Part shown: positions 6,814 to 51,803 of the stretch, in pieces
Layout of the letters: every line of letters begins with the position of its first letter
How positions within the stretch are numbered: the stretch's first letter is position 1
Assembly: GCA_019166125.1 (NCBI GenBank)
Contig: JAHTBO010000001.1
Location: forward strand, 39,066 to 103,065
Length of the DNA: 64,000 nt
Direction: 5' to 3'
DNA from: Alcaligenaceae bacterium CGII-47
Lineage (GTDB): Bacteria; Pseudomonadota; Gammaproteobacteria; Burkholderiales; Burkholderiaceae_B
Notes under the pieces: generated by a model
Database searches by the model: none
What the model was told of the DNA's origin: nothing
The model's input: only the letters and a program-made list of their open reading frames with translations
Made by a program: the position numbers and the translations under genes

Positions 6814-6814
6814 C

Positions 6815-21766: not shown

Positions 21767-22510
21767 CTACAAGCCCAGATAGGCCTGGCGCACCGCTTCG
21801 TTCGCGGTCAGCTCAGCCATCGATCCGCTATAACGGATCGCTCCCTTCTCCAGCACATAGACACGATCCGCCACCAGTTGAGCAAAATAGATGTTTTGCT
21901 CGGCAAGCAATATGCTCGCGCCGTGCGCCTTGAGTGCCAGGATCATGGCGATCATTTGCTCGACGATGACCGGGGCGATGCCCTCGGAGGGTTCGTCAAG
22001 CAGGATCAAAAATGGGTTGCCCATCAGGGTGCGCGCGACGGTCAACATTTGCTGTTCGCCCCCGCTCATCGCGCTTGCGGGGCGCTGGCCCATAGTCGCC
22101 AGATTAGGGAATAGCTCGTACAGCTTGTCGGCTGTCCAGGTGGTCACAGCCTGGCCATCGGGCCAGTATCGCGATGGCTGGCGGCCGACGTCCAGGTTTT
22201 CCGCGACCGTCAGATCGGTAAAGATACGTCGATCCTCGGGCACGTAACCCAGGCCCAGACGGGCAATCTGATAAGGTTGGTACCCGATAATCGATTGACC
22301 CATAAAGACAATCTGCCCGGTACGCTTGGGGGCGAGCCCCATGATGGATTTCAGGGTGGTTGATTTACCCGCACCGTTGCGCCCCATCAGGGCGACGACC
22401 TCGCCTTGTCCGACGTGTAGATCGATGTGGTGCAACACGTGCGCTGCACCATACCAGGCATTGACCTCAGAGAGCGTCAGTAGCGCTGAAGTGGGTGCCT
22501 GCGCCGTCAT
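21767..22510 (-). CDS. livF: LIV-type ABC transporter ATP-binding protein (LivF), system 2
   Basis: 247 residues. Walker A GRNGAGKST (about residues 41-49), LGYVPEDRRIF (Q-loop region), signature MSGGEQQMLTVARTL and Walker B LILLDEPSEGIAP identify LivF; it ends VRQAYLGL. It overlaps livG by four bases (ATGA) and is the last gene of a four-gene minus-strand operon (binding protein, fused permease, livG, livF). Confidence 0.9.
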   Translation of the reverse strand: MTAQAPTSALLTLSEVNAWYGAAHVLHHIDLHVGQGEVVALMGRNGAGKSTTLKSIMGLAPKRTGQIVFMGQSIIGYQPYQIARLGLGYVPEDRRIFTDLTVAENLDVGRQPSRYWPDGQAVTTWTADKLYELFPNLATMGQRPASAMSGGEQQMLTVARTLMGNPFLILLDEPSEGIAPVIVEQMIAMILALKAHGASILLAEQNIYFAQLVADRVYVLEKGAIRYSGSMAELTANEAVRQAYLGL

Positions 22511-23283
22511 GACCTCACCTCATCGTTACTGCGCTCAAATGTCCTGCCGGTGCCAAAGTAGGCCTCCTGGGCGCGCGGGTCATGGCGTACCTGATCGGCG
22601 TTGCCTTGGGCAATAACCTGGCCGCGGGCCAGCACGATAATCCGATCAGCATAGGTAAATACGACGTCCATGCTGTGCTCGGTAAATAACACGGCCAGAT
22701 GATGCTGGCGCACTAATTGCTGGACTAAGGCAATTAAGGCATTGCGCTCGGCGGCAGCCATCCCCGCCGTCGGCTCGTCCATCAGCAGCAATCGCGGCTC
22801 GCATGCCAACGCGATAGCCAGTTCAACGCGCTTGACGTCACCATAGGCCAGCTCGTTGCACGGGCGGTGTGCCTGCTCGCGCATACCGACTTGGCTAAGC
22901 AGCTCCAGTGCGCGCTCAGGGGCCATGCTGGGCACGGGTCGCCAAAACGAATAGATTTTCCGGCGATGCGCCAATAATGAAATCTGAATGTTCTCGAGCA
23001 CGGTCAGCGACGAAAAAACGGCTGCGATCTGGAATGTGCGCGCCACCCCGAGGCGTGCGATTTTGCGTGATGGAGCGCCGAGTATTTCGGTGCCATTCAG
23101 CAGAACCGATCCCGCGCTTGCCGATAATTGGCCACCGATCATATTAAATACCGTGGATTTACCTGCGCCGTTCGGGCCGATCAGTGCCAGCATCTCACCT
23201 GCCGCCAGCGTAAAGCTCACGCCATCGACAGCGAGGTTGCCGCCGAATTGCTTTTTCAGACCCTGGACCTGTAACAGGCTCAT
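22507..23283 (-). CDS. livG: LIV-type ABC transporter ATP-binding protein (LivG), system 2
   Basis: 258 residues. Walker [10 protein letters not shown] is at about residues 36-44, the signature region LAYGDVKRVELAIAL near residue 150, and Walker B LLLMDEPTAGM near residue 168, with TEHSMDVV after it. It overlaps both neighbours by four bases (ATGA), indicating coupled translation with the fused permease upstream. Confidence 0.9.
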   Translation of the reverse strand: MSLLQVQGLKKQFGGNLAVDGVSFTLAAGEMLALIGPNGAGKSTVFNMIGGQLSASAGSVLLNGTEILGAPSRKIARLGVARTFQIAAVFSSLTVLENIQISLLAHRRKIYSFWRPVPSMAPERALELLSQVGMREQAHRPCNELAYGDVKRVELAIALACEPRLLLMDEPTAGMAAAERNALIALVQQLVRQHHLAVLFTEHSMDVVFTYADRIIVLARGQVIAQGNADQVRHDPRAQEAYFGTGRTFERSNDEVRS

Positions 23284-25190: not shown

Positions 25191-25225
25191 AAGATTGCCT
25201 TGCGCACCGGTGTGCGCTGCCGCCT

Positions 25226-26431
25226 TTAATCAGCCTGTGCGCGACGCCATTGTTTGACCTGCTCGTCGCTCGGCTGAACCTGGGCGCCATCGACATACTT
25301 AAAGTCCGTCATGATACCTTGACCATCCTGCAATGCCAGCACCCCCACATAAGCCCCCATCGTCGACTGATGATCAATGCTTCGATAGATGATAGGACCA
25401 AACGGCGTATCGAGCTCTAGCCCTTTGAATGCAGAAATCAATGCTTCTGTATCGGTGGAGCCAGCCTTCTTGATGCCGGCAGCCAGGGACAAAATGGTGT
25501 TGTACCCCACCACAGAGCCCAAGCGTGGATGGTCGTCGAATCTAGCCTGGTAGGCCTGCAGAAACTGGGTGTGCTCGGGGGTGTCGATGGCATACCACGG
25601 ATAGCCGGTAACCACCCATCCCACTGGGGTCTCGGAGCCTAATGGATCCAGGTATTCGGGCTCGCCCGTCAGCATGCTCACAACGGGTAGGGCCTCAAAG
25701 AAATTGCGTTGCGTCCCCGCGCGCACAAACTTGCTTAGATCACTGGCGAACAGCACGTTGAATAAGGCCTCGGGCTTCGCATCGGCGAGCGCCTGCACGA
25801 CATTGCTGGCGTCGATTTTACCCAGTGGCGTGGCTTGTTCGGCGACGAATTCCACATTGGGTTGGGCGGCTTGGAGGAGCGCCTTAAAGGTTGCAACGGC
25901 CGATTGCCCGTACTCGTAATTGGGGTAGACGATCGCCCAGCGCTTTTTATTCATGGCAATGGCGGCAGGAATCAACATGGCCACTTGCATATAGGTCGAA
26001 TTGCGTAGCCTGAATGTGTAGCGATTGCCATCGGCCCAAACGATCTTGTCGGTCAAGGGTTCGCTGGCGAGGTAGAACACCTTTTTATGCTTGGCAAAAT
26101 CTGTGATCGCCAAGCCGATATTCGACAAAAATGCCCCAGTCAGAACATCCACCTTGTCGCGTGTCAGCAGCTCCTGTGCAGCGCGTACCGCATCACCTGG
26201 GTTTGAGTTGTCGTCACGGGTGATCAGTTCTAGCTGCTTGCCATTAACACCGCCCGCAGCATTGATCTGCTCGAGCGCGAGTTCCATGCCTTTTTTGTAA
26301 GGTCCGAGGAACGCTGGCTGCGTTTTATAGCTATTGAGTTCGCCGATTTTGATGGTATCTGCCGCCCACGCGGGTGCGATAGCAAAGCTCAGGGTGGCGA
26401 TGGCCAGTAAGGCGGTCAGGGATCGGGTCAT
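25226..26431 (-). CDS. LIV-type ABC transporter substrate-binding protein, system 2
   Basis: 401 residues with a signal peptide ending near AWA|AD. The mature start DTIKIGELNSYKTQPAFLGPYKKG is the family pattern (IGELNSY near residue 27), with GVNGKQLELITRDD and the type-1 periplasmic fold continuing. It is the first gene of the operon, with the permease 35 bases downstream. murI starts the same-strand series upstream; its stop is 14 bases from this start, so both could share a transcript. The ligand is unknown. Confidence 0.88.
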   Translation of the reverse strand: MTRSLTALLAIATLSFAIAPAWAADTIKIGELNSYKTQPAFLGPYKKGMELALEQINAAGGVNGKQLELITRDDNSNPGDAVRAAQELLTRDKVDVLTGAFLSNIGLAITDFAKHKKVFYLASEPLTDKIVWADGNRYTFRLRNSTYMQVAMLIPAAIAMNKKRWAIVYPNYEYGQSAVATFKALLQAAQPNVEFVAEQATPLGKIDASNVVQALADAKPEALFNVLFASDLSKFVRAGTQRNFFEALPVVSMLTGEPEYLDPLGSETPVGWVVTGYPWYAIDTPEHTQFLQAYQARFDDHPRLGSVVGYNTILSLAAGIKKAGSTDTEALISAFKGLELDTPFGPIIYRSIDHQSTMGAYVGVLALQDGQGIMTDFKYVDGAQVQPSDEQVKQWRRAQAD

Positions 26432-28153: not shown

Positions 28154-28399
28154 CCAGGGGCCAGATTCAGGAACGACCCGCACCGAACCGCCACGAACAG
28201 ATTAAGAAATCAGTTCAATTAATCGCATGTGCATTGCCGCATGCTTTGATAGGTTCGGTTTGCCTCTATTTTTATTATCTCCAGCAGAAACTTCCTGGCT
28301 TGTTGATGTTTGATAAGATCGAGCCAGTTTCTTCGGTTCGAGTTTATAAAAACCGATTACATTGGAAACATTGATTCTCAGAAACAAGTAATCGGGAAT

Positions 28400-29347
28400 A
28401 TGTCACAAGAAACAATCGGTATATTAATAATGGCGTACGGCACGCCGCGCAATATCGCAGATCTGACTGCCTATTACACCCATATACGTCGTGGTAATCC
28501 GCCAACTGAAGACCTGTTGCAGGAACTAAGCAAGCGCTATCGGGCGATTGGTGGATTATCTCCGCTTGGGCGCATTACCCAAGAACAAGCAGATAAGCTT
28601 GCCCAAAATATGAATACGCGGCTACCGGGCACAAGCTTCAAATCTTATGTCGGGTTCAAGCATATTCATCCCTTTATCGAGGATGCTGTTGAGTCTATGC
28701 ATGCCGATGGTATCGAGAAGGCAATCTCGATAATCATGGCGCCTCATTACTCTGCCCTCAGTACACAGTCTTACAGCGATCGTGCGACCAAGGCGGCAGA
28801 AAACCTGGGCATGCCCACGCTCGTTACCATATCAAGCTGGTATCGCCAACCCAAGTTTATCGCGTACTGGGCACAGCGCATCCGCGCAATGCTGTCCTTA
28901 ATGTCCGCAGCGGAAAGACAACAAACGATCGTCCTGTTTTCGGCGCATAGCCTACCAAGACAGACACTGGTCGCAGACCCTTATCCCCAGCAGGTGCTAG
29001 AGAGCGCGCGTCTTATCGCAGCTGCCGCAGGCCTGGACAATTACGAGCTTGCCTGGCAAAGCGCTGGCAGGACATCTCAATCCTGGCTTGGGCCCGACAT
29101 CCTGAGCGTCACCAGAGAATTATCAAAAAGCGGCAATTATAAAAAATTTATCTATTGTCCCATTGGATTTGTGTCTGACCACCTAGAGATCCTCTACGAC
29201 AATGATATTGAATGTCGTGCTGTAACGGATGAGTTAGGTGCGCAATATCTTCGTCCCGCGATGCCAAACACAGATGATTTATTCATCGCTGGCCTGGGTG
29301 ATGCGCTTATCCAAGCATTAGTTATGATGGAGCCAGCCCAGACATGA
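28400..29347 (+). CDS. cpfC: Coproporphyrin III ferrochelatase (CpfC, Gram-positive-type HemH)
   Basis: Inserts Fe2+ into coproporphyrin III (coproporphyrin-dependent pathway) or protoporphyrin. It has 315 residues, closely matching the monomeric Bacillus-type enzyme in length and sequence: MAYGTP with Tyr13, YYTHIRRG, AIGGLSPL, SAHSLP with His183 and VSDHLEILYDND with Glu263. Tyr13 and the catalytic His/Glu fall at the Bacillus positions. Proteobacterial HemH is usually longer and differs in the first motif. The start is the ATG at 28400; the frame is open upstream. It overlaps the next gene by four bases. Confidence 0.88.
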   Translation: MSQETIGILIMAYGTPRNIADLTAYYTHIRRGNPPTEDLLQELSKRYRAIGGLSPLGRITQEQADKLAQNMNTRLPGTSFKSYVGFKHIHPFIEDAVESMHADGIEKAISIIMAPHYSALSTQSYSDRATKAAENLGMPTLVTISSWYRQPKFIAYWAQRIRAMLSLMSAAERQQTIVLFSAHSLPRQTLVADPYPQQVLESARLIAAAAGLDNYELAWQSAGRTSQSWLGPDILSVTRELSKSGNYKKFIYCPIGFVSDHLEILYDNDIECRAVTDELGAQYLRPAMPNTDDLFIAGLGDALIQALVMMEPAQT

Positions 29348-30798
29348 AGAGCGAAGCGCGACGTGTGGCGATTATCGGCGGAGGTATAACGGGGCTTTCC
29401 ACAGCATTTCATCTTCATCAGCAAAAGAACAAAGGCCAACTGCCGTTAGAGTTTTCACTGCTGGAATCAGAGCCCCGACTTGGTGGCAAGATCAAGACGC
29501 TGCGACATGGCGCATTTCTGATTGAAGCGGGCCCAGATTCCTTTCATATAAAAGGCAAAAGCCTTCTTGATCTCATCCAGGCTGCCGGGCTGGGCCACAC
29601 ACTTATTCGTAGTAATACGGGGCAAGCTTTTGTCTTTGCCAAAGATGCGCTTTACCCTATTCCTGCGGGGATGGTGATGGGGGTGCCAACGAAGCTTATG
29701 CCGTTTTTAAAATCCGGACTCTTCTCGCCGGCCGGTAAGCTGAGGGCTGCCCTTGAGCTATTGTATAAACACAACGTGGCGGTTGATGACGAGTCGGTTG
29801 ACAGTTTTTTTAGACGACATTTCGGCAGCGAGCTCGTGGACCGCTTGATCGAACCTTTGTTTTCAGCGATCTACGCCGAAAGCACCGAACGTCTCAGTGC
29901 TCATGCGACCATGCCCCACATGGTTGCTCTGCAAAAGAGCCATCAGAGTCTGATTTTAGGGATGCGCAGATCCCAGGCCGGTCCCGAGCAAAATAAGCGT
30001 GCACCTCGTCGTGATAAGACCCCGGGCCCGTTTACGAGTCTCGACCGGGGGCTTGAATCGCTCGTCGCCGCGATCGAAGACCTTCTACCGCCGTCGTCTG
30101 TGATGAGGAATACGACAGTGACGCGTATCCAGGAAATTGCGGGACGGTATCGGCTTACCCTGCGCGGGAACGATACGCTGGATGTCGATGCGGTGGTCTT
30201 AACTGCACCTGGCGAGTCCGCAGCAAGCTTGCTGGGTATGCCCGCTAGCTTTAGCCCCTTGCAAGAAAGCCCGCCTGCCTCGGTCGCCAACGTCGTGCTG
30301 GCCTTTCGGCAAGACGCGATAAAAATTCACAATCCTGGAACGGGTTTCATCGTGCCACGAAACGCTGGCTGCGCAATCACTGCGTGTACATGGAGCCACC
30401 TCAAATGGCCGCACACCACCCCGAAGGGCTATGCGCTTTTGCGTTGCTACGTGGGCCGGCCAGGCGACGATGCGATTGTGAACGCCGATGATCACCTTAT
30501 CGTGCAAACCGTGTTGCATGATCTTAAACGCGTCATGGCCATCAATGATGCACCCGAGTTTCACGTAGTTACACGCTGGCGCAATGCGATGCCTCGATAC
30601 GCGGTAGGGCATTTGGTGCATATGGCCAAGCTCACCGAAAGTGTCGCCACGCGTTTTCCAGGTGTCGTGCTGGCGGGAGCGTCATATGGTGGCATTGGGC
30701 TCTCCGAATGTGTGCGTCAAGGCGAGGACGCTGCGCACGCGACGCTTGCGCATATCTTTGCAAGACCATCCCTTTTAAAGAAGTCAAGACAATGTTGA
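29344..30798 (+). CDS. cgoX: Coproporphyrinogen III oxidase (CgoX/HemY-type)
   Basis: 484-residue FAD enzyme that oxidises coproporphyrinogen (or protoporphyrinogen) to the porphyrin. The N-terminal dinucleotide motif IGGGITGLSTAF is at residues 11-22, EAGPDSFH near residues 61-68, and a C-terminal VLAGASYGGIGLSECV closes the FAD site. It overlaps cpfC (ATGA) and the next gene by seven bases, a tightly coupled order. Many betaproteobacteria use HemJ or HemG for this step, so a HemY/CgoX type next to CpfC is notable. Confidence 0.85.
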   Translation: MKSEARRVAIIGGGITGLSTAFHLHQQKNKGQLPLEFSLLESEPRLGGKIKTLRHGAFLIEAGPDSFHIKGKSLLDLIQAAGLGHTLIRSNTGQAFVFAKDALYPIPAGMVMGVPTKLMPFLKSGLFSPAGKLRAALELLYKHNVAVDDESVDSFFRRHFGSELVDRLIEPLFSAIYAESTERLSAHATMPHMVALQKSHQSLILGMRRSQAGPEQNKRAPRRDKTPGPFTSLDRGLESLVAAIEDLLPPSSVMRNTTVTRIQEIAGRYRLTLRGNDTLDVDAVVLTAPGESAASLLGMPASFSPLQESPPASVANVVLAFRQDAIKIHNPGTGFIVPRNAGCAITACTWSHLKWPHTTPKGYALLRCYVGRPGDDAIVNADDHLIVQTVLHDLKRVMAINDAPEFHVVTRWRNAMPRYAVGHLVHMAKLTESVATRFPGVVLAGASYGGIGLSECVRQGEDAAHATLAHIFARPSLLKKSRQC

Positions 30799-31316
30799 TT
30801 ACCAATCTCGGTCGAACTCGAATCCGACTTTTAGCAAGCTTCGGAACATTGACAGACGAACAGTTGAATACAAAATATTATCCATGCGAATGGACGGTCA
30901 GCCAAATCGTTCACCATCTTTATATAGTGGAAAAGAACATCGCAACCGATGTCTTGAGTGCCTTGGGCGGTACAAGCGAAAAAGTTGCTGAAAAGGACCT
31001 TTCCTATCTACGCACGGATGACAGCCTACTCCATATTGAGCTCGAGTCACATAGCGGTTTTATGACGAAGCAGGAATTGATCCGGATGCTTGAAGAATCC
31101 CGCTTTCGATATCTGCAACGCGTATTTAATGAAACACACGAGCGTATTCTGGTTGATAAATCCACGGCGCATCCACTATTTGGCAAAATAAGTTTAAAGA
31201 ATCTGGTCGATTGCGTATGGCTGCATGAGCAGTATCACACGATTCAAATAGAAAACATGAGCGCCTCGTTTAAAGATGTGGTCGATAGTACTGATATAAG
31301 CAATGTAGCTTTGTGA
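30792..31316 (+). CDS. DinB/YfiT-like putative metal-dependent protein
   Basis: 174 residues of the DinB four-helix-bundle family. The metal-binding histidines appear as WTVSQIVHHLYIVE (near residues 33-46) and WLHEQYHTIQIE (about 144-155). It starts at the ATG 30792 inside the 3' end of cgoX. It lies 18 bases before chdC, so it is part of the haem operon. Known DinB-family enzymes include mycothiol- or bacillithiol-dependent transferases. The role here is unknown; it might protect or deliver an intermediate. Confidence 0.78.
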   Translation: MLITNLGRTRIRLLASFGTLTDEQLNTKYYPCEWTVSQIVHHLYIVEKNIATDVLSALGGTSEKVAEKDLSYLRTDDSLLHIELESHSGFMTKQELIRMLEESRFRYLQRVFNETHERILVDKSTAHPLFGKISLKNLVDCVWLHEQYHTIQIENMSASFKDVVDSTDISNVAL

Positions 31317-31334
31317 TCTTAAAGGGAATGCATT

Positions 31335-32003
31335 ATGCAAGAACAATTCACTGCTCAACTAGCCATTAAATTCACCTCGCAGTGGAATCAGTTGGGAAAA
31401 AAAGAGCGCTTAGAGGCGGTAGAAGCTGTTGCGGCGATCTTCAAACAATATGAGGATCGAGTGGGCTTGCGCGGAACCTATATAGTGCAAGGCTTTCAGG
31501 GTCATACAGACATCCTGTTCTGGATGTTTAGTGAGCACTTTGACGACATTCAGAATCTTCAGCTGGAAGTCCGTAGATCAACGTTAGGCGCTTATATTGA
31601 TACGCCACACGCATTTGTGGGAATTACCAAGCCATTCGAATTTTCCGAACACCCGACATCTTTTGCCATCGGCATGACGCCCAGAAAATATCTGTGCTTC
31701 TATCCATTTATCAGAAAGCCCGAATATTATCTGCTTCCTGCTTGGGAGAGAAAGGCCGTAATCGGAAATCATGGAGAGATCGGTCATGAGTTCGTGCCGG
31801 ATATCTTGACCAATGGTGTTTATGGATTCGGCCTTGGAGACTATGAATGGCTGCTGACTTTCGAGACAGACAAGCTCAGTCATCTTGTGGACTGCGTGAG
31901 AAAACTAAGGGAGTCAAAATCCAGGCTTTACATGCAGGATGAACATCCTTTTATTGTGGGGCGTTATTTTGATTTGAAGGACGGCCTGCTCCAGTACGTC
32001 TGA
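31335..32003 (+). CDS. chdC: Coprohaem decarboxylase (ChdC/HemQ), chlorite dismutase family
   Basis: 222 residues. Converts coprohaem III to haem b with H2O2, the last step of the coproporphyrin-dependent pathway. The family core is well conserved: CFYPFIRKPEYYLLP with the probable catalytic Tyr123, GNHGEIGHEF with the proximal His146 and GFGLGDYEWLLTFE near residues 164-177. These match HemQ better than true chlorite dismutases, which carry a distal Arg in the same fold. AAAGGGA lies ahead of the ATG. It completes the cpfC-cgoX-dinB-chdC set. Confidence 0.87.
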   Translation: MQEQFTAQLAIKFTSQWNQLGKKERLEAVEAVAAIFKQYEDRVGLRGTYIVQGFQGHTDILFWMFSEHFDDIQNLQLEVRRSTLGAYIDTPHAFVGITKPFEFSEHPTSFAIGMTPRKYLCFYPFIRKPEYYLLPAWERKAVIGNHGEIGHEFVPDILTNGVYGFGLGDYEWLLTFETDKLSHLVDCVRKLRESKSRLYMQDEHPFIVGRYFDLKDGLLQYV

Positions 32004-32271: not shown

Positions 32272-33531
32272 ATGGGTGCAATTCAACTTAGCTACAGCAC
32301 GTTCGGCTTGACTAATCTGGATTTTCTGGATGCCATCGACGCGGTGGGTCAGGCGGGCTATGAGGGGATCGAGATCGCTTTTCATCGGCGTCAGTTCAAC
32401 CCCTACGATATTAGCGATGAATATTTGGCGACTGTGCGCAGACAGCTGAATGCTGCCCGAATCAAGCCGGCGTGCGTCGCGACCGCCTCACACTTCTTTA
32501 CGCCGTCAAGACCGCATGAGCCTTCATTGATGACGCCAGACCTGGCGGGCCGCAAACGTCGGATTGACCTGGTCAAGCGTGGCATTGATATCGCTCGTCG
32601 CTTAGGCGTCTCGTTGGTGACGTTTGGCAGTGGATTCATTCGTGACGAACACATCCTTAACCCCTCGGTGAATCCGCGCGCGCTGCTCGTCGAAAGTATC
32701 CACGAGTGCCTTCGCGCAATTCACGATGATGAGGACATCACACTGCTGATCGAGCCGGAACCAGGTATGTTCATCGAGACCCTGGAGCAAGGGCTATCGC
32801 TGATCAACGAGATCAATTCGCCGCGATTTCAGTTGCACATCGATATTTGCCATGCCTATTGCTCTGAGCAGGATTACATTGCTGCGTTGGGACGTGCGGC
32901 GCCCTTCGCCCGGTATTTGCATATCTCGGACGCGCGCGAAGGTTATAACCTGAAAATTGTGAAGGATAGCGAGCACCTTTCCTTTGATCTGGGGTTTGCC
33001 AGCACACTCGTCTACTTTCCCGACACGGCTGACTACTTGCTGGTGGATCGCACGCATTCGCTGTATTTCTGCAACCAAAGGCCGGGACACCAGCGTCGAC
33101 AACGACTTGATGCCATCCTGGCGCAGGCTGGCGTCGCAAGGGCGCCGACCTGTGTGGATTATTCGCGACTGTACGCAGGCGCTTCACCGCTAGATGATGA
33201 GATCTTCACTTATCTGATCTCTATTCCCGGACTGAGCTACGACGTGCTCGAGCGTGCCAAACCCATTCTCGCCTACTTGCGCGGTGCCAGGAACCCGCCG
33301 CTGGTAAACAAGATGGTCGCCAATACGCTCACTGGCATCGTTCACTTTCACGAGATTCCCGGCGAGGGGACTCTTGATTTGGGTGCCAGCTTCAAGGCAT
33401 TGATCGATAACGGCTTCTCGGGCTTTGGCTCAGTCGAGCTGTATCACCATGTAGAGTCATGGCAGAGCGCCCTGACAGACAGTTACCATCATTTGGCGCA
33501 ACTCATCGATAAGGGGGCCCAGTCGGCCTGA
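32272..33531 (+). CDS. TIM-barrel sugar-phosphate isomerase/epimerase-like protein with large insertion
   Basis: 419-residue xylose-isomerase-like TIM barrel. It begins IQLSYSTFGLTNLDFLDAI; presumed metal ligands are the Glu in IEPEPG (near 161-163), LHIDICHAY (Asp191, His194), HISD (His217) and VELYHH (Glu389). Typical family members have about 270-300 residues. The extra length is an insertion of about 130 residues (roughly 224-355) between HISD and the HEIPGEGTLD strand, which are normally adjacent. It opens a five-gene operon with 31 bases to the LuxS homologue. It probably isomerises or epimerises a sugar or cyclitol. Confidence 0.8.
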   Translation: MGAIQLSYSTFGLTNLDFLDAIDAVGQAGYEGIEIAFHRRQFNPYDISDEYLATVRRQLNAARIKPACVATASHFFTPSRPHEPSLMTPDLAGRKRRIDLVKRGIDIARRLGVSLVTFGSGFIRDEHILNPSVNPRALLVESIHECLRAIHDDEDITLLIEPEPGMFIETLEQGLSLINEINSPRFQLHIDICHAYCSEQDYIAALGRAAPFARYLHISDAREGYNLKIVKDSEHLSFDLGFASTLVYFPDTADYLLVDRTHSLYFCNQRPGHQRRQRLDAILAQAGVARAPTCVDYSRLYAGASPLDDEIFTYLISIPGLSYDVLERAKPILAYLRGARNPPLVNKMVANTLTGIVHFHEIPGEGTLDLGASFKALIDNGFSGFGSVELYHHVESWQSALTDSYHHLAQLIDKGAQSA

Positions 33532-33562
33532 GATTCGCTGCCCGTTTTACTGAAGAATCATT

Positions 33563-34045
33563 ATGATGAATATCGAGGATCTGGGTTGGGATACCCGTAC
33601 TGTGGGGGAACTTGACCATCGTCGCTTGAAGGCGCCAAGTATCAAACTGCGTAGCGCCAGGTGTGGCGAAAATGGGGACATAATCTATTGCGTCGATCTG
33701 CGTGTGCGACGCCCGAACGTCGGTGCATGTCTTTCCTCCACCGAGCTGCACTCGATTGAGCATTTCTTGCTGGCGGGTTTTCAGCATCACCTGCCGTCCC
33801 ACTTTGTGTCTGTAGGCGTGATGGGCTGCCAAACAGGCTTTTATCTGGTTTTCCTGAACGAAGGTCGTAGTAAAGCGATCTGTGACGTTCTGGAAAGCAT
33901 CCTGGCCGACATACTGAAGGCAAGCATGGTGCCCTATGCAAGCATTGAGCAGTGCGGTAATTATATGGATCATGATCTTGGCAAAGCGCAGGATATCGCT
34001 CGCGCTATCCTGGCGGCAAGGACAGATTGGCTGGATGCGGCATGA
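33563..34045 (+). CDS. luxS: LuxS-family protein (S-ribosylhomocysteine lyase homologue)
   Basis: 160 residues, the usual LuxS size. LuxS cleaves S-ribosylhomocysteine to homocysteine and DPD through metal-assisted carbonyl shifts. Metal ligands are intact: His63 and His67 in HSIEH and Cys131 in EQCGNY. Glu66, Cys89 in MGCQTGFY, ELDH at 16-19 and Arg47 are also kept. Two substrate-contact stretches differ: the canonical DISP before MGC is SVGV here, and the serine two residues before the E-L-D-H segment (SFELDH in Bacillus) is replaced by V. It sits inside a cyclase/methyltransferase/prenyltransferase operon, so another substrate is likely. Overlaps the cyclase start (ATGA). Confidence 0.85.
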   Translation: MMNIEDLGWDTRTVGELDHRRLKAPSIKLRSARCGENGDIIYCVDLRVRRPNVGACLSSTELHSIEHFLLAGFQHHLPSHFVSVGVMGCQTGFYLVFLNEGRSKAICDVLESILADILKASMVPYASIEQCGNYMDHDLGKAQDIARAILAARTDWLDAA

Positions 34046-35190
34046 GCAATGGCATCACCCGCTGGCGGGTCAGCTATCAACGCCCAGTTGAATACGACAT
34101 CGTTGAGGCGCCGCATTTGTTTCTCCCACAAAACCAGGCCTTGTTATCGGCTGGCAGGATCGAAGGCGGCCGTCGGTTCGTCGTGGTTGACGAAAACGTT
34201 GATTGCTACCACGGCGAGCGGATTCGTGCTTACTTCGCGCAGCATCAGATCGAAGCCAGAATCGTCGTTTTTCCCGGCGGCGAGGAAAACAAGACGGTGG
34301 ATGCGTATCTAGGTATCCTGCATGAGCTGGATGCCTTTCCGATTCATCGCCGCGATGAACCCATTATCGCTATTGGTGGCGGGGTACTGACTGATGTGGT
34401 CGGTTTCATCGCCGGCAGTTATCGCCGCGGTGTCCCGCACATCAAGGTGCCAACCACATTGATGGGCTACGTGGACGCTTCAGTAGGGATCAAAACCGGC
34501 ATCAACTTCAACGGTCACAAGAATCGGCTGGGCAGCTTTGAGCCACCGCAGCGGGTGCTGCTCGATCGTACCTTGCTGAGCACCTTGCCACGACGCCATC
34601 TTCTGAATGGGGTGTGCGAAATTATTAAGTTGGCGATCATCAAGGATGCCGAACTATTCCTTGAGCTCGAGCGTGATGGCGCACAAAGCATTGCCGCCAG
34701 CTTCCAGAATCCCAGCGGCGAGGACATACTCGGTCGCGCGATAGCCGGAATGCTGGAGGAACTCGAACCGAATCTGTTCGAGAACGACTTATCGCGCAAG
34801 GTGGATTTTGGACATACTTTCAGCTACGGACTTGAAATCCGCCATGAAGCGCTCTTGCTGCACGGTGAGGCTGTACTGCTCGATATCATGGTCTCGACCT
34901 TGATTGCCTGCAAAAGGGGCCTGCTGTCCGACGAGGATACGAGCCGGATTTTGCGCTTGGTGGGCCGACTGGGGATCAAGCCACAGACGCGCCTGCTCGA
35001 TGCCAGTCTGATGTGGCAATCCCTACAGGAGCGCGTCGAGCACCGTAACGGGCTGCAACGGGTACCTATGCCCAATGCTCTTGGCAGCTGTGTTTTTGTC
35101 AATGATATTACCGAGCAGGAAATCAGATCCTCTATACAAATGCTCAATGACTGGAAGATTCCCGAAAATGACCGAATTCTCGAATGCTGA
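34042..35190 (+). CDS. Sedoheptulose-7-phosphate cyclase-like protein (EEVS/DHQ-synthase superfamily)
   Basis: 382 residues. Sugar phosphate cyclases make carbocycles by an intramolecular aldol reaction. Visible features: GGGVLTDVVGF at about residues 112-122, KVPTTLMGYVDASVG near 135-149, KTGINFNGHKNRLG near 151-164 and the metal ligands Glu193 (CEIIK), His258 (DFGHTF) and His274 (LHGEA). KNRLGSF and DFGHT are closer to 2-epi-5-epi-valiolone synthases and EboD-type proteins than to 3-dehydroquinate synthase (which has GKNMIGAF and NLGHT). The start is the ATG at 34042 overlapping luxS. The product is probably a C7 cyclitol, but the exact cyclase class cannot be fixed by eye. Confidence 0.82.
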   Translation: MSNGITRWRVSYQRPVEYDIVEAPHLFLPQNQALLSAGRIEGGRRFVVVDENVDCYHGERIRAYFAQHQIEARIVVFPGGEENKTVDAYLGILHELDAFPIHRRDEPIIAIGGGVLTDVVGFIAGSYRRGVPHIKVPTTLMGYVDASVGIKTGINFNGHKNRLGSFEPPQRVLLDRTLLSTLPRRHLLNGVCEIIKLAIIKDAELFLELERDGAQSIAASFQNPSGEDILGRAIAGMLEELEPNLFENDLSRKVDFGHTFSYGLEIRHEALLLHGEAVLLDIMVSTLIACKRGLLSDEDTSRILRLVGRLGIKPQTRLLDASLMWQSLQERVEHRNGLQRVPMPNALGSCVFVNDITEQEIRSSIQMLNDWKIPENDRILEC

Positions 35191-35872
35191 TAATCAGGAA
35201 ATTACCAAGTTCGATAGGGTGGCACAACTTTGGTGGGACCCTGAAGGCAAGATGGGCAATCTGCATGCCATCAATCCGCTACGCTTGAGATACATTATGG
35301 ATAGGATGGGCATCGCGCAGCCTAGAGTGCTGGATGTTGGCTGTGGTGGCGGAATTCTGACCGAAGCGCTCGCTAAGACTGGCGCACGGGTCACCGGCAT
35401 TGATCTGTCTCAGATGTCGCTGGATATCGCTCGCCAGCACGCGGATCAGCATGGTTTGGATATCGACTATCGCTACGAAAGTGCAGAGCAGCTCGCCCAG
35501 GAGCAGCCGGGTAGTTTCGATGTCGTGACTTGCATGGAGATGCTCGAGCATGTGCCCGACCCAGGCAAAGTAATCAAAGCCTGCGCTCAGTTGCTCAAGC
35601 CTGGCGGTCAGGCTTTTTTCTCCACGATCAACCGCACGCCAAAGGCGTTTCTGTTTGCGATCATTGCTGGTGAATACATTTTGCGCCTATTGCCGCGTGG
35701 TACCCACAGCTACCGCAAACTCATACGCCCACACGAGTTGTATGACTGGGCGAACGTCGGTGGCTTGACGTTCATGGGGGTGTCCAGCCTGATGTACAAC
35801 CCATTTCGCAAGACGTTCACGCTTGCCTCGGACAAGGCGGATGTCAACTACATGGCCTGTTTCGTCAAGTAA
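35168..35872 (+). CDS. ubiG: UbiG-like SAM-dependent O-methyltransferase
   Basis: 234 residues from the ATG at 35168. UbiG methylates hydroxyls of ubiquinone precursors. The family opening NADNQEITKFDRVAQLWWDP is present in short form at residues 6-24, SAM motif I VLDVGCGGGILTE at 54-66, DLSQ and the MEMLEHVPDP motif near 127-136, followed by FSTINRT and a C-terminal FVK. It overlaps the cyclase by 23 bases. A separate housekeeping ubiG would be expected elsewhere in a ubiquinone-making genome, so this copy may methylate the operon's own product. Confidence 0.85.
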   Translation: MTEFSNADNQEITKFDRVAQLWWDPEGKMGNLHAINPLRLRYIMDRMGIAQPRVLDVGCGGGILTEALAKTGARVTGIDLSQMSLDIARQHADQHGLDIDYRYESAEQLAQEQPGSFDVVTCMEMLEHVPDPGKVIKACAQLLKPGGQAFFSTINRTPKAFLFAIIAGEYILRLLPRGTHSYRKLIRPHELYDWANVGGLTFMGVSSLMYNPFRKTFTLASDKADVNYMACFVK

Positions 35873-35878
35873 GGGTGA

Positions 35879-36781
35879 ATGCTTATGAAACGTTTTCTTG
35901 CCCTGTCCAGATCGACCCACGGCATCTTGGACATTGCAATGCCAGGTTTCGTCGCTTTGCTCTGGCTGGGTGGTTTTCCACCCTGGCCGGTGCTACTGCT
36001 TTGTCTGCTCACTGCGGTGGCCGGTTATACCGCCATATACGCGTTGAACGACCTTGTTGGCGTTAAGGTCGATCAAGAAAAATTTGCGGGTCAAGGCATC
36101 AATCGTGGCTATTCGGTTGAAGCTTCCGACATGCGTTATCCCCTGGCGCAGAATTTGATCAGCATGCGCGGTGGTATCGCCTGGTTCTTGTTCTGGTATG
36201 GGTTGACGCTAGTCGGCGCTTATCAGCTCAACCCGGCTATTGTGATCATTGTCATTGCGGTCGCGGTGCTTGAGGCCATTTACTGCTTGCTGCTAAAGGT
36301 GACCTACTGGCGCACGCTTGTCAGTGGCCTGGTCAAGTCTGCCGGACCGATCGCCGCAGTCTATGTCGTGGCCCCAGACCCCTCCTTGCCACAGTTGCTA
36401 CTGCTGTTGGTCTGGCTGATGCTCTGGGAGATCGGCGGGCAAAATATCCCGGCTGACTGGAACGATATCGACGAAGACCGACGCGTCGGGGCCAAGACCA
36501 TTCCTTTGGTTTTTGGCCCAAGACGCGCTGGTATGGTTGTTGTTGTCACGCTGACGCTGACGGTCGTCATCAGTGCTTTTCTGCCGTTTATGTCCCCTCT
36601 GCCTTTAGGTTGGCCGTACCTGGTGGCTAGCATCACGGCTGGGTTTCTTCTATTGCTGTTGCCAGGCTTTAGGCTCCATCGGTCGCATGGCGCAGGCCAG
36701 GCTGCGGCGTTGTTCGACCGCGCCAGTCTCTACCCTTTGGCCCAATTGGTGATTATTTTGGTGGCGGTCGTGCTTACCTGA
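35879..36781 (+). CDS. UbiA-family prenyltransferase
   Basis: 300-residue integral membrane prenyltransferase, attaching a polyprenyl or isoprenoid chain to an acceptor. The first Asp-rich motif is NDLVGVKVD (residues 57-65, Asn57, Asp58, Asp65) and the second is DWNDIDED (193-200), both used to bind Mg-diphosphate. Several hydrophobic helices are visible throughout. The ATG may be 35879 or the in-frame 35885. It closes the operon 6 bases after the ubiG-like gene. The acceptor is probably the cyclitol or aromatic product of the preceding enzymes; ordinary 4-hydroxybenzoate use is less likely here. Confidence 0.82.
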   Translation: MLMKRFLALSRSTHGILDIAMPGFVALLWLGGFPPWPVLLLCLLTAVAGYTAIYALNDLVGVKVDQEKFAGQGINRGYSVEASDMRYPLAQNLISMRGGIAWFLFWYGLTLVGAYQLNPAIVIIVIAVAVLEAIYCLLLKVTYWRTLVSGLVKSAGPIAAVYVVAPDPSLPQLLLLLVWLMLWEIGGQNIPADWNDIDEDRRVGAKTIPLVFGPRRAGMVVVVTLTLTVVISAFLPFMSPLPLGWPYLVASITAGFLLLLLPGFRLHRSHGAGQAAALFDRASLYPLAQLVIILVAVVLT

Positions 36782-36818: not shown

Positions 36819-37523
36819 TCAAATGCCCAGATACGCTTTACGCAGCCGGTCGTCTTTCAGCAGTTCTGCACCCGTGCCAGACATCACGATCTGTCCATGT
36901 TCCAGCACATAAGCCCGGCTGGCGATGCTCAGCGAGCGATGTACGTCTTGCTCGACAAGGAAAATCGTGATGCCGCGTGCGTTGATTTCCGGTAGCTTTT
37001 CAAACACGGTTTCGACCATGATCGGCGCAAGTCCAATGGATGGCTCGTCTAATAACAATAGTTTCGGCCCAGTCATCAGCGCGCGGCCGATGGCCAGCAT
37101 CTGTTGTTCGCCGCCACTGAAAGAGCGGGCCAGTTGTTTTCGCCTGGACTCCAGCTTGGGGAACAGGGAATACACCCATGTCAGATTTTCACTACTGCGC
37201 TGTTTATCACACAGAATGTCACCCCCTATCAGCAGGTTGTCTTCCACTGTCATGTGGTTAAACAACCGTCGTCCTTCCATCACCTGTGCGATACCCAGTT
37301 TTGCTATTTGATGCGTTGGCAATTTGGTGATGTCTTGGCCGTTGAGCCAGACGTGGCCTTCGCGCGCAGGCAAGGTACCCATGATTGTGCGCACCAGAGT
37401 GGACTTGCCCGCACCATTGGCGCCGACGATACTGATGATCTCGCCTTGTTGGATAGACAGGGAAATGCTGCTGAGCACCTGGATGTCGCCATAGCCTGAA
37501 CTCAGGTTGTTAATTTCAAGCAT
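36819..37523 (-). CDS. livF: LIV-type ABC transporter ATP-binding protein (LivF), system 3
   Basis: 234 residues. Walker A GANGAGKST near residues 34-42, signature FSGGEQQMLAIGRAL and Walker B LLLLDEPSIGLAP; ends LRKAYLGI. Its stop lies 38 bases from the convergent UbiA stop. It is the last gene of a long minus-strand operon that begins near 46123. Overlaps livG by eight bases. Confidence 0.9.
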   Translation of the reverse strand: MLEINNLSSGYGDIQVLSSISLSIQQGEIISIVGANGAGKSTLVRTIMGTLPAREGHVWLNGQDITKLPTHQIAKLGIAQVMEGRRLFNHMTVEDNLLIGGDILCDKQRSSENLTWVYSLFPKLESRRKQLARSFSGGEQQMLAIGRALMTGPKLLLLDEPSIGLAPIMVETVFEKLPEINARGITIFLVEQDVHRSLSIASRAYVLEHGQIVMSGTGAELLKDDRLRKAYLGI

Positions 37524-38253
37524 GGGCGTGATGTCCTTTATATTGATCGCCTAGGTAGGCCGCGATGACTTCGGCACTGGAAGCTACCTGTTCTGGTTCG
37601 CCATCGGCGATTTTCTGCCCGTGATGGACGACGATGATGCGATCAGACAAGCGCATGATGGCCTGCATATTGTGTTCGATTACCAACACGCTCACGCCAT
37701 CGTCGCGCAGGCTTCTAACCAGATCCAGCATTTCTGTAATTTCGACTACATTCAGACCCGCCATGACCTCATCGAGCAGCAACAGCTTGGGCTGGGTCGC
37801 TAGCGCCTTGGCCACCTCTAGCCGTTTACGGCCAGCCAGCGTCAGGGTGTGCGCGACTTGTGCGGCACGGGGGCCGAGCCCAACGCGTTCAACCACACGC
37901 ATGGCTTGTTCTCGAGCCCGTCCAGTCGATCGGCAATGCAAAAAGGCACCGATCATGACGTTTTCCAGCACGGTCATCTCGCCAAAGGGGCGCACAATCT
38001 GATAAGTCCGTACCAGACCCGCTTCGCATATATCAGGCGCGGTAAGGCGATCGATGCGTTTATCGCGGAACCAGATCTGGCCATGAGTTGGGCTAAGGAA
38101 ACCCGACGCCATGGCAAATAAAGTCGTTTTGCCCGCACCGTTTGGGCCGATTAAGCCCACGATCTCGTTTTCTTTTACCTCAAAACTGACATTGTCAGTT
38201 GCGCGCAATCCACCGAAATGCATGGATACGTTCTTGTACTGGAGCAGGCTCAT
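37516..38253 (-). CDS. livG: LIV-type ABC transporter ATP-binding protein (LivG), system 3
   Basis: 245 residues. Walker A GPNGAGKTT (about residues 36-44), TYQIVRPFGEMTVLENV (Q-loop area), signature LTLAGRKRLEVAKAL and Walker B LLLLDEVMAGL, with IEHNM after it. The Walker B Pro is replaced by Val (DEVMAGL), a common LivG variant. Overlaps livM by four bases. Confidence 0.88.
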   Translation of the reverse strand: MSLLQYKNVSMHFGGLRATDNVSFEVKENEIVGLIGPNGAGKTTLFAMASGFLSPTHGQIWFRDKRIDRLTAPDICEAGLVRTYQIVRPFGEMTVLENVMIGAFLHCRSTGRAREQAMRVVERVGLGPRAAQVAHTLTLAGRKRLEVAKALATQPKLLLLDEVMAGLNVVEITEMLDLVRSLRDDGVSVLVIEHNMQAIMRLSDRIIVVHHGQKIADGEPEQVASSAEVIAAYLGDQYKGHHAHA

Positions 38254-39239
38254 GGTTTGGCCTCCGCGAGGGGCGAGGTGGGCTTGCGTTTGCTGCTGAA
38301 CAACCAGCCCAAGATGGCAAGCAAGCCTTGTGGTTGCAGGCGAATGACCAGCATCAGCAGCAAGCCATAAAGCAACATGTCAGCGCCCACCAAGCCGCCG
38401 GTCATGCGACGGGCAATGTCTTCTGCGGGCAGAAGCAGGGCCGCACCCAGGATGGGGCCCCAAAGTGTGCCTCGCCCACCTATGATGCAGATGACGGCAA
38501 TCACAATACTGGTATTCGCACCGAAGACCTTGTCGGGGCTGATGAATAGTACATACTGAGCATAAAACGTACCGCCCAGGGCTGTCAGGCCAGCGCTAAG
38601 CATTGCGGCATACAGTTTGTAGCGCGTCACGCGTACGCCCAGGGCTTCAGCCGCTTCCTGGTCGTTGCGAATGGCGGTTAGATAGAAGCCCATACGGCTG
38701 CCCAGAATGGCATGATTCAAATACGCGGCAATCAGTACAAACGCTAGAGCGACGAGATAATAAAAATATTTGCTGGTGTGTTGGAAGTACAGTATGGCAT
38801 CACCAAGCAAAGGCACTTCCATGCCGCGTGAGCCTTCCAGTAGGGTGTCTGCGTTTTCCACCAAGGTTTTAAGCACCATGCTGGCTGCCAGGGTTGCCAG
38901 TGCGTAATATGCGCCGCGCAGGCGAAAGCTGGCAGCGCCAATTAAAATAGCCGCCAATATTGCAAAGGCCGCGCCGGCAAACATCCCCAGCCATGGTGTC
39001 AGGCCCAATTTGGAAAATAGCCAGGTTGAGGTGTAAGCGCCGATGCCGAAGTACGCGGCATGGCCAAGGGATAACTGGCCGGCTATACCGCCAAGGATGT
39101 TCCAGGAAAGCGCCAGATAAGCGTACAGCAGCGCCAAAATACCCACAGACAAGAAATAGGTGTCTCCGTACGCCATGGGAAACAGCACGAGCGCCACAAG
39201 CGCTAATTTTCCAATGCGTGCAACAGATACAGAATTCAT
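38250..39239 (-). CDS. livM: LIV-type ABC transporter permease (LivM), system 3
   Basis: 329 residues. LivM hallmarks are GQLSLGHAAYFGIGAYTS near residue 54, FRLRGAYYALATLA near residue 105 and GGRGTLWGPILGA near residue 254, with a hydrophobic helix pattern throughout. It overlaps livH by one base. The C-terminus is positively charged (SSKRKP), consistent with a cytoplasmic end. Confidence 0.88.
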   Translation of the reverse strand: MNSVSVARIGKLALVALVLFPMAYGDTYFLSVGILALLYAYLALSWNILGGIAGQLSLGHAAYFGIGAYTSTWLFSKLGLTPWLGMFAGAAFAILAAILIGAASFRLRGAYYALATLAASMVLKTLVENADTLLEGSRGMEVPLLGDAILYFQHTSKYFYYLVALAFVLIAAYLNHAILGSRMGFYLTAIRNDQEAAEALGVRVTRYKLYAAMLSAGLTALGGTFYAQYVLFISPDKVFGANTSIVIAVICIIGGRGTLWGPILGAALLLPAEDIARRMTGGLVGADMLLYGLLLMLVIRLQPQGLLAILGWLFSSKRKPTSPLAEAKP

Positions 39240-40120
39240 TATTCTTTCTCCACGCCGAATAGACCAGAGGGGCGAAAATACAGGACAGCGAGGAAGAGTG
39301 CAAAAATCAACGCTTCGGTATAGGTGACGGGCATGAGCTGTCCGCCAACCGACTCAATAACCCCGACCATGATGCCTGCCCAGAATGCGCTGCCTACCGA
39401 GCCGATTCCGCCAAGCACGACGATGACGAAGGCGCGCAGACCAAATATGTCGCCCACGAAGGGGTTGACTGGATACAAGGGCAGCAGCAGTGCGCCAGCA
39501 ATGCCCAGCACAGCCAGGCCAAGTGCAAAAGAAACGCGGTAAATTGAGAAGGTATTGATGCCCAGTACGCTGGCGGCCTCGCGGTCCTGGCCTGTCGCGC
39601 GAATAGCGCGGCCGGTGCGCGTGTAGCGTAAAAATGCGACTAAGGCGAGCGTAGTGAGGCATGAAAATACAAAGCCAGCGATTTGCGGGTAGGTCAAGAG
39701 ATAATCATAGAAAAACAATATGTCATCATTCCACGAGCTGGCAACGGACTGATTCTCAGGTCCGACAGCAATCAGCATCAGGTGATCCAGCATGATCCAC
39801 AAGCCGGTGGTGAAAATCAATACGCTGATCGGTTCGCGTGCGGATTCGCGTTGATAGATGGGATCGATCAGCCATTTCTGGGTCAGGTAGCCCACGACAA
39901 ACAGTACGACAGCGGTAAATGGGATGGTTACCAGCGGATGAAAGCCCAGGTAATTGGACAGCCAAAGCGAGACGAACATCGATATCATCAAAAACGAGCC
40001 ATGAGCGAAGTTGATGATCTTCATGACACCGAACTGCAGGCTCAGCCCCAAGGCGATCAGTCCGTACAAGGCGCCGCTGGCAATACCGCTGAGCAAGGCT
40101 TGTATGAGTGTTGTGGTCAC
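39239..40120 (-). CDS. livH: LIV-type ABC transporter permease (LivH), system 3
   Basis: 293 residues beginning with GTG at 40120, which gives the expected N-terminus TLIQALLSGIASGALYGLIALG. KIINFAHGSFLMISMFV lies near residue 34 and GGIGSVGSAFWAGI near residue 238. The ribosome-binding site is weak. It follows the binding protein by about 100 bases and forms the channel with livM. Confidence 0.87.
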   Translation of the reverse strand: MTTTLIQALLSGIASGALYGLIALGLSLQFGVMKIINFAHGSFLMISMFVSLWLSNYLGFHPLVTIPFTAVVLFVVGYLTQKWLIDPIYQRESAREPISVLIFTTGLWIMLDHLMLIAVGPENQSVASSWNDDILFFYDYLLTYPQIAGFVFSCLTTLALVAFLRYTRTGRAIRATGQDREAASVLGINTFSIYRVSFALGLAVLGIAGALLLPLYPVNPFVGDIFGLRAFVIVVLGGIGSVGSAFWAGIMVGVIESVGGQLMPVTYTEALIFALFLAVLYFRPSGLFGVEKE

Positions 40121-40222
40121 TATAGGAGTCTCGGGTTGATGGCCATGCTGTGTGTGACAGCATGGCTGTAAATGAGTACCGCCTCGCGCTCACACGCGAG
40201 GCAGGGTTAAGCGTTGGCGGTA

Positions 40223-41485
40223 CTACTCGCTGGTGTCGGCCGGCCACACGATCTTGTAGTCTTTGGCCGCCAGATTTTCCGGCCATACCGTGCGGTATTC
40301 TTTGCCGTCGATCTGCTGCATTACATAGCGCTTTTCAGTGTTCTGGCCCGTTGCATCGATGACGATGTCGTAACCCAGCAGTTTGGTCACGTCTGTGCCT
40401 ACGATTTTGGTCGTCGCCAGTGCGTCGCGAATTGCCTTGGGATCAGCAGAGGCAGCACGCTCCAGTGCGTCTTTCAAGACCCACATGGCGCCATAGGCAC
40501 TGACGGACAATTCATTCGGATCAACCTTGTAAGTGGCTACAAATTCGTCCCAAAAACGCTGGGCAAACGGTGTGTTGATGGTCGAGGCATAGCCAGCCCA
40601 CCCATTTGTAGTGAATACCGTATTGGCTGTTTTTTCGCCAACCAGGGGAATAAAGCCACTATCGATCTGACCGGCAGCGCTGCCGATGTAGGCCATGCCG
40701 CCAACGCGCATTTGCGCGAGCAGCTTATGCAGCTGAACAGCATCCGCAGCATAGGAGGTCACTGTTACGACGTCAGGCTTGCGTCCTTTTACCTTCAGAA
40801 CAAGCGGGCGCAGGTCAGCGGTATTGGGCGGGTAGGCTTCATCCAGTACGATTTCCAGGCCCTGCTTTTTAAAACCTTCGCGCAATGTGTTGGCCATATC
40901 CTGACCCCAGTCTGTATTTTCATACAGCATGGCCACGGTTTTAGCCTGCTTGTCGGTTTTGCCGTTCATGTATTTAACGAACTCGACCATGCTATTCGCG
41001 TTATATGAGGCAGGCACCTGTGTCGGACGGAATACGTACTGGTAGCCTCGCTCGGTGATCTCCTTTTTAGCAGCCAGGTCGACGACCCAAGGCACCTTAT
41101 GTTTCTCTGCTACGGCGGTAGCGGGGAAGGTGACGGAGCTTTGGAATGCACCGATCAGGGCGGATACTTTGGCATTGGTGATCAGGCGCTCGGCTTCGGT
41201 AATGGCTACCTGAGGATCGCCCCGAGAGTCAGCTTCCAGTAGTTCGATTTTTGCGCCATCCAGGGATTTGATGCCGCCGTTCTCATTGATGTGCTTGACA
41301 GCAAGATGCGTCGCCCGGCTCATGTCACGGCCAATTGATGAGGCCGCGCTGGAGGACAGGGGGATCAGATAGCCTACCTTGACTGGGTCGGCCGCATGAG
41401 CGGAGAAACTAGAGCACACAGCAAGGGCAGTGGTTGTCAGACCTGCTGCCAGGGCTTTTAGGTTGAATCGCTTATGTCTTTTCAT
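40223..41485 (-). CDS. LIV-type ABC transporter substrate-binding protein, system 3
   Basis: 420 residues from the ATG at 41485, which has GAAGGAGATAAA upstream; an in-frame upstream codon at 41536 lacks this. The signal peptide (KRHKRFNLKALAAGLTT and a cleavage near SAHA|AD) is followed by VKVGYLIPLSSSAASSIG. Typical type-1 fold blocks follow. The gene is directly downstream of the beta-lactamase-family hydrolase, suggesting that the transporter's ligand is processed by the hydrolase, oxygenases and ligase of the same operon. Confidence 0.88.
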   Translation of the reverse strand: MKRHKRFNLKALAAGLTTTALAVCSSFSAHAADPVKVGYLIPLSSSAASSIGRDMSRATHLAVKHINENGGIKSLDGAKIELLEADSRGDPQVAITEAERLITNAKVSALIGAFQSSVTFPATAVAEKHKVPWVVDLAAKKEITERGYQYVFRPTQVPASYNANSMVEFVKYMNGKTDKQAKTVAMLYENTDWGQDMANTLREGFKKQGLEIVLDEAYPPNTADLRPLVLKVKGRKPDVVTVTSYAADAVQLHKLLAQMRVGGMAYIGSAAGQIDSGFIPLVGEKTANTVFTTNGWAGYASTINTPFAQRFWDEFVATYKVDPNELSVSAYGAMWVLKDALERAASADPKAIRDALATTKIVGTDVTKLLGYDIVIDATGQNTEKRYVMQQIDGKEYRTVWPENLAAKDYKIVWPADTSE

Positions 41486-41540
41486 GAGGTTTATCTCCTT
41501 CCTTGTTGACGTTAGGTGATGCTTTGTGGTGGACAAAAAT

Positions 41541-50735: not shown

Positions 50736-50759
50736 ACAGCTGTCTGGCACGCCATATAG

Positions 50760-51800: not shown

Positions 51801-51803
51801 GCC

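Follow-up and report, generated by a model that had tools for sequence, protein, structure and literature searches.

The window analysed here, a stretch of 64,000 nucleotides from Alcaligenaceae bacterium CGII-47 (contig JAHTBO010000001.1), contains an operon of five plus-strand genes that encode, in order, a TIM-barrel enzyme, a homologue of the S-ribosylhomocysteine lyase LuxS, a sugar phosphate cyclase, a UbiG-type O-methyltransferase and a UbiA-superfamily prenyltransferase. That this operon is real, strongly conserved and mobile, and that its LuxS is non-standard, is well supported by the comparisons below; as far as our literature searches reach, it is uncharacterised. We see roughly an even chance that the five genes form a self-contained, horizontally moving set that makes a prenylated, O-methylated and perhaps aromatised C7-ring lipid, with LuxS-type chemistry carried out on a carbocycle.

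In the open-access literature (subscription literature lay outside the search), we found no paper joining LuxS, 2-epi-5-epi-valiolone synthase (EEVS), UbiG and UbiA besides one on a Chloroflexi metagenome-assembled genome (MAG), SURF MAG 42. Its appendix Table A1 lists a xylose isomerase-like protein, LuxS, EEVS, UbiG and UbiA in the order of the operon, their protein numbers running consecutively, near a chimeric nirS (PMC8756737). These are the same five genes, named there as lying within 20 kb of nirS, and the table proposes no function or pathway for them.

Conservation and movement of the operon

A sequence-only reading of the window had described five closely packed plus-strand genes of these families, and its description is right: all five are present at 32272-36781 (Table 1), in a genome of 3.45 Mb that is 99.99% complete. 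The TIM and LuxS genes are 31 bases apart, the LuxS and cyclase genes share a 4-base ATGA overlap, the cyclase and UbiG genes overlap by about 23 bases (given a UbiG start at 35168), and 6 or 12 bases separate UbiG from UbiA, depending on the UbiA start chosen. Neither Rfam nor tRNA searches found a match in the window, and promoter and terminator matches in it were not above shuffled expectation.

A scan with the TIM alignment over one genome per species (84,980 species) found 64 loci, which is a lower bound: two exact peptide patterns served as the filter, and 64 of the 105 stretches that matched them were confirmed. When the window proteins were compared with these loci by tblastn, TIM was matched in 64, LuxS in 63, the cyclase in 61, UbiA in 59 and UbiG in 59 genuine cases (the raw UbiG count of 60 includes an unrelated match in L050, 30% identical and upstream of TIM). 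All five genes occur in one order and on one strand in 58 of the 64 loci, some of the matches being partial (TIM in L068 and L072, UbiA in L071), and five of the six incomplete loci run into a contig end (L047, L050, L052, L059 and L063). The hosts include Anaerolineae and other Chloroflexi, Lysobacteraceae, Rhodanobacteraceae, Comamonas, Castellaniella, Candidimonas, gamma proteobacterium HdN1 and three mycobacteria (Mycobacterium szulgai, M. angelicum and M. simulans). The sequence-only reading had pointed to gene neighbourhoods as the place to look, and the five-family synteny is indeed kept across Pseudomonadota, Chloroflexota and Mycobacterium; because the same synteny recurs in other genomes, chance adjacency is excluded. 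We further note a strongly diverged operon with all five genes in a Rhodanobacter MAG (L070, 9001-13500; TIM 55% identical), perhaps a second subtype.

Closer to the window, the operon type of LuxS is found in four of 81 genomes (the window's own and 80 relatives) at 60-100% identity; one more carries a canonical LuxS, 36% identical. One genome of the same genus (G006) and one of the same family (G036) also carry the operon. Within the window's genus the LuxS homologue occurs in three of ten genomes, and the operon is therefore patchy. In a quick tree of the five concatenated proteins (58 rows with all five near full length, from 37 Pseudomonadota, 18 Chloroflexota and 3 Actinomycetota; supported only by the Shimodaira-Hasegawa-like approximate likelihood ratio test, SH-aLRT), the mycobacteria fall among Chloroflexota, and the congener G002 groups with Luteimonas (98) and not with the window. 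These placements indicate that the operon moves horizontally. A plasmid origin was looked for in 72,556 plasmid records, where LuxS and TIM searches returned 30 and 57 records, respectively, all below 60% identity (LuxS 34-37% and TIM about 28% in the rows displayed), and the operon was not seen among them.

Families flanking the operon were compared all against all in 67 stretches, namely the 64 loci, two congeners and the window (L008 and L069 lie on the same contig), leaving aside alternative-frame open reading frames (ORFs) that overlie the five genes. No outside family occurs in more than 14 of these stretches, the top one being a generic ABC ATPase with 14, and we therefore regard the five genes as the unit.

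Sequence features of the five enzymes

The LuxS fold is known for the quorum-sensing signal autoinducer-2 (AI-2) and for recycling in the methyl cycle, and its chemistry normally ends in an elimination. The operon homologue shares this fold: its AlphaFold2 model (pLDDT 93) matches LuxS structures with Z of 18-22 (1j6x 22.1, 1jqw 20.5). It passes the cut-off of Pfam PF02664 and falls under that of the NCBIfam LuxS equivalog (117 bits versus 158), and exactly one LuxS match is found in each of 28 operon genomes searched. We compared 63 operon copies with 30 canonical proteins, all from Pseudomonadota (29 loci from an even draw of 398 genomes, in which 51 matched and 30 yielded loci, and one from the relatives). 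H19, R47, H63, E66, H67, C89 and C131 are kept in every operon copy; for the metal-binding and catalytic residues we assume the usual roles and, in most cases, the usual Bacillus numbers.

The two groups differ at the position that is Asp78 in Bacillus, six residues ahead of the catalytic Cys. All 30 canonical proteins have Asp there, as do the aligned structures 1j6x and 1inn; none of the 63 operon copies does, their residues being Ser (49), Gly (9) or Cys (5). The Ser-Pro that follows becomes Gly or Ala and then mostly Val, Ile or Leu, with Pro left in seven copies. Further, the N-terminal Ser-Phe seen in the 14 canonical rows on which this comparison rests is replaced by a longer segment with an invariant Gly-Trp and Gly-Glu, and operon and canonical proteins form two separate clades (SH-aLRT 99). 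Glu57, Arg65 and Asp78 are named as substrate-binding residues in a passage on LuxS (PMC2656534), and Asp76 of Streptococcus suis LuxS is described as hydrogen-bonding the carboxyl group of the substrate (PMC4618692). The retention of the catalytic residues together with the loss of the contact to the amino-acid end points to a new substrate that lacks this end, and the homologue has probably been neofunctionalised.

The usual LuxS substrate, S-ribosylhomocysteine, is supplied by MTA/SAH nucleosidase (MTAN). When 28 of the about 66 operon genomes were searched with TIGR01704 (completeness is given for 3 of the 28), MTAN passed the cut-off in 6 and gave weak matches in 15; the remaining 7, which include G002 (a single contig) and the complete genome of HdN1, had no match. 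The same search of 14 well-known genomes, run as a control, returned matches in 12, with 7 over the cut-off.

Among solved structures the cyclase matches 4p53 best (E 2.5e-94), followed by 5tpr (3.4e-72), named 3-dehydroquinate synthase by its depositors and presumably a desmethyl-4-deoxygadusol synthase (DDGS), and then by dehydroquinate synthases (3zok 2e-38, the rest weaker). It is 44% identical to ValA over the matched 4p53 stretch, 37% to 5tpr, 28-30% to four EboD proteins of ebo operons, 27-28% to two dehydroquinate synthases and 27% to the host's own AroB. At two positions, which we take to be the sites that separate EEVS from DDGS, ValA has Asp and His, and all 62 operon cyclases compared keep both residues; 60 of these have Tyr143 where ValA has Met, and the operon cyclase sits beside LuxS, UbiG and UbiA homologues. 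That 4P53 is ValA, and that two EEVS-versus-DDGS sites exist, is stated in a figure legend and text of PMC4426668, the legend leaving open which sites they are. By these comparisons the cyclase is EEVS-like and nearest to ValA. A plain 3-dehydroquinate synthase, which the sequence-only reading had kept in view, is ruled out by the greater closeness to ValA than to the host AroB, and by the true AroB encoded elsewhere in the genome (393 bits, cut-off 305).

The methyltransferase is well over the TIGR01983 cut-off for UbiG (269 bits versus 103). It is 52% identical to a second UbiG elsewhere in the host genome and 49-56% identical to 28 stand-alone UbiGs of Burkholderiales, from which 60 operon UbiGs are separated as a clade (SH-aLRT 100) with only six positions fixed differently at the thresholds used. 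Being so close to UbiG, the enzyme may well use an acceptor of the same kind, a prenylated phenol or catechol, which would imply an aromatised ring. The prenyltransferase passes PF01040 (100.5 bits versus 34.2) and reaches the cut-off of no NCBIfam subfamily (best 60 bits versus 181), and the motifs YALND and PADWND..ED are kept in at least 98% of 60 operon copies. The host encodes a true UbiA and two heme o synthases elsewhere. The sequence-only reading had considered that the operon might hold the only ubiquinone UbiG and UbiA of the genome; the further copies dispose of this and speak against membership in the ubiquinone pathway. To our knowledge Mycobacterium and Chloroflexota make no ubiquinone, so the operon UbiG and UbiA are not ubiquinone genes in these lineages.

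For the TIM protein, an AlphaFold2 model (pLDDT 90) was compared with known folds, and 2-hydroxy-3-keto-glucal hydratase (8ro4) stands sixth in the Foldseek list. E161, E163, D191, H194, H217 and E389 are invariant in a 32-sequence alignment; four of them (Glu161, Asp191, His217 and Glu389) are candidate metal ligands, an assignment that we presume from epimerases. The protein is a probable metal-dependent epimerase, isomerase or dehydratase.

Proposed pathway and competing explanations

We propose the following order of steps, activities and product as a hypothesis drawn from sequence. The cyclase would close sedoheptulose 7-phosphate to 2-epi-5-epi-valiolone or a close isomer. The LuxS homologue would then act on this cyclitol instead of S-ribosylhomocysteine, with a metal-assisted walk of the carbonyl from C1 through C2 to C3 and a beta-elimination at C5, which by general chemistry would give C7H10O5. 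LuxS chemistry could fit a cyclitol because the ring ketone and the C2-C5 hydroxyls match the spacing in open S-ribosylhomocysteine, the C5 hydroxyl replacing the thioether. The TIM enzyme may epimerise or dehydrate an intermediate and might conceivably allow aromatisation to a hydroxylated (trihydroxy-) benzyl alcohol, to which UbiA would attach a polyprenyl chain, and the UbiG-type enzyme would O-methylate a phenol- or catechol-like hydroxyl. The sequence-only reading had the operon start from a sugar phosphate and make a prenylated, O-methylated cyclitol or quinone-like lipid, with LuxS and the isomerase acting on intermediates; in outline this is still the best-supported reading, and none of the outcomes it had named as fatal was found, while its comparison with the ebo clusters holds as an analogy only.

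More tentatively, and as a possibility rather than an expectation, the operon may encode a route, independent of shikimate, that turns sedoheptulose 7-phosphate into an aromatic membrane lipid (catechol- or quinone-like) bearing polyprenyl and methoxy groups, and in which a LuxS-fold metalloenzyme walks a carbonyl round a carbocycle and eliminates water. If so, the LuxS family would catalyse a reaction that is not part of the activated methyl cycle, in a pathway that Proteobacteria, Anaerolineae and some mycobacteria share by horizontal transfer, and the LuxS fold would have a second, biosynthetic job. A LuxS annotation would then be no evidence for AI-2 in such genomes (some Chloroflexota, Rhodanobacter, Lysobacter, M. 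szulgai and its kin), and three phyla would share an isoprenoid C7 lipid that has yet to be described and may be a redox quinone.

Several observations weigh against the proposed pathway. Of the 398 Pseudomonadota genomes in the even draw, one alone gives an operon-like LuxS score, that of the window (314 bits, the next being 126), and the operon is therefore rare. In one Chloroflexi locus (L067, 10875-12942) the cyclase gene adjoins UbiA with no UbiG homologue between them; there the methyl group would be either optional or added by another enzyme. Ketose 3-epimerases and xylose isomerases come closest to the TIM model in fold (Z about 28-31), and the sequence match to AsbF is weak (E 1.6e-4); we considered an AsbF-like aromatising dehydratase, which the fold neighbours of the model do not favour over epimerases, and the aromaticity of the ring is itself something we infer. 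EboD has the same Asp and His as ValA, so these residues are not proof of EEVS activity. At the Arg65 position of the LuxS homologue, 43 of the 63 copies keep Arg, 17 have Lys and the window copy has His, which means that the substrate contacts are lost only in part. The six genomes with MTAN over the cut-off are three Mycobacterium, one Chloroflexi (OLB14) and two Comamonas; the window's genome encodes an MTAN-like protein (L011, 1489-2415) that scores 63.2 bits in the genome search and 93.5 as a protein (cut-off 73.8), and some of the 15 genomes with weak matches might encode divergent nucleosidases, so that in some hosts the LuxS homologue may still act on S-ribosylhomocysteine. The MTAN-like protein of the window's genome also has an apparent signal peptide and a family match split into two stretches, which is odd for a cytosolic enzyme.

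A somewhat unlikely alternative, in our view, is that the product stays non-aromatic, a prenylated cyclitol like the isoprenoid-cyclitols considered for ebo and BE-40644, with LuxS and TIM merely isomerising or epimerising the cyclitol. The epimerase folds around the TIM model would suit such a product, which agrees less well with a methyltransferase still close to UbiG, an enzyme of prenylated phenols, and with the elimination expected from LuxS chemistry. A precedent for UbiA acting with a sugar phosphate cyclase is discussed in the text of PMC5133447.

Less likely again is that the homologue is an ordinary S-ribosylhomocysteinase that recycles the S-adenosylhomocysteine left by the UbiG-type enzyme, while the other four genes make the product. 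Its fold and catalytic residues are intact, it shares an operon with a methyltransferase, and MTAN passes the cut-off in six of the 28 operon genomes, as it does for the window's genome when scored as a protein. This explanation has to contend with the loss of Asp78 in 63 of 63 copies, the replaced N-terminal Ser-Phe, the 22 of 28 genomes without MTAN over the cut-off (7 of them matchless), the SahH encoded in the window's genome, and the consideration that a single methyltransferase would rarely need a recycling enzyme of its own. On the loss of Asp78 and the patchy MTAN we set it aside as the best explanation.

The ebo (EDB) operon, eboA-F, is by analogy the nearest published idea: like the operon in the window it clusters a TIM barrel, a sugar phosphate cyclase and UbiA, and an isoprenoid-cyclitol product of the latter two has been proposed in the text of PMC5133447. 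These shared superfamilies, and the two ValA-type residues in EboD, would be in keeping with an ebo variant that makes the same product, which we nonetheless think highly improbable. The TIM protein scores 12.3 bits against the EboE model NF035939 (cut-off 250), and the cyclase, 44% identical to ValA versus 28-30% to EboD, is the sole window protein with a blastp match at 1e-3 in five genuine ebo stretches; TIM and UbiA had none there among ORFs of at least 150 amino acids, EboC not being identified in these stretches by model. By Pfam, none of the five genes is EboA, EboB or EboF, and LuxS and UbiG homologues stand in the window operon instead. We reject ebo membership on the EboE score, the five-stretch comparison and the cyclase, and what survives of the ebo comparison in the sequence-only reading is the sharing of superfamilies. 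Finally, that ordinary shikimate and ubiquinone genes lie together by accident, as automatic names (AroB, UbiG, UbiA) would have it, is refuted by the separate AroB, UbiG and UbiA elsewhere in the genome and by the identical synteny in Mycobacterium and Chloroflexota.

Neighbouring genes

Table 1. Genes of the operon and transporter gene sets in the window (window coordinates).
Feature	Position	Strand	Remarks
TIM-barrel enzyme, xylose-isomerase-like	32272..33531	+	419 aa; PF01261 E 2.7e-35
LuxS homologue	33563..34045	+	160 aa; PF02664 E 1.2e-32
Sugar phosphate cyclase, EEVS-like	34042..35190	+	ATG 34042, 382 aa; PF01761 E 2.6e-36
UbiG-type S-adenosylmethionine-dependent O-methyltransferase	35168..35872	+	234 aa, ATG 35168 likeliest start; TIGR01983 269 bits
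UbiA-superfamily membrane prenyltransferase	35879 or 35885..36781	+	300 aa (298 from ATG 35885); PF01040 E 1.2e-28
Branched-chain-amino-acid type ABC set	3447-9265		ORF reading
Branched-chain-amino-acid type ABC set	21767-26431		ORF reading
Branched-chain-amino-acid type ABC set	36819-41536		ORF reading
Branched-chain-amino-acid type ABC set	49434-54400		ORF reading
Branched-chain-amino-acid type ABC set	54475-59372		ORF reading

Directly upstream of the operon (28310-32003), a ferrochelatase, a HemY-type oxidase, a DinB-like protein and a HemQ-like protein of the chlorite dismutase family are encoded in a row. By sequence these resemble a set for coproporphyrin-dependent heme synthesis, here in a betaproteobacterium. 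All four also precede the operon in congener G002 (L009, 11449-15042), and the upstream heme genes occur in none of the 64 loci within the stretches available (up to 9 kb upstream, often less).

In M. szulgai (L054) the operon is preceded by genes for an ABC ATPase, an FtsX-type permease and a CrtC/lipocalin-like protein (4510-8978), and a polyprenyl synthetase is encoded downstream on the opposite strand (13505-14368); an export system and a prenyl supply are possible roles for these neighbours. Five further loci have polyprenyl synthetase genes close to the operon.

Many of the operon records (L015-L078) come from groundwater or reactor organisms. Host names such as these, together with the nirS neighbour tabulated for the Chloroflexi MAG (PMC8756737), offer a lead, and only a lead, to a link between the operon and denitrification. 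The window itself holds a dense collection of at least five branched-chain-amino-acid type ABC transporter sets, recognised by ORF reading without a family scan.

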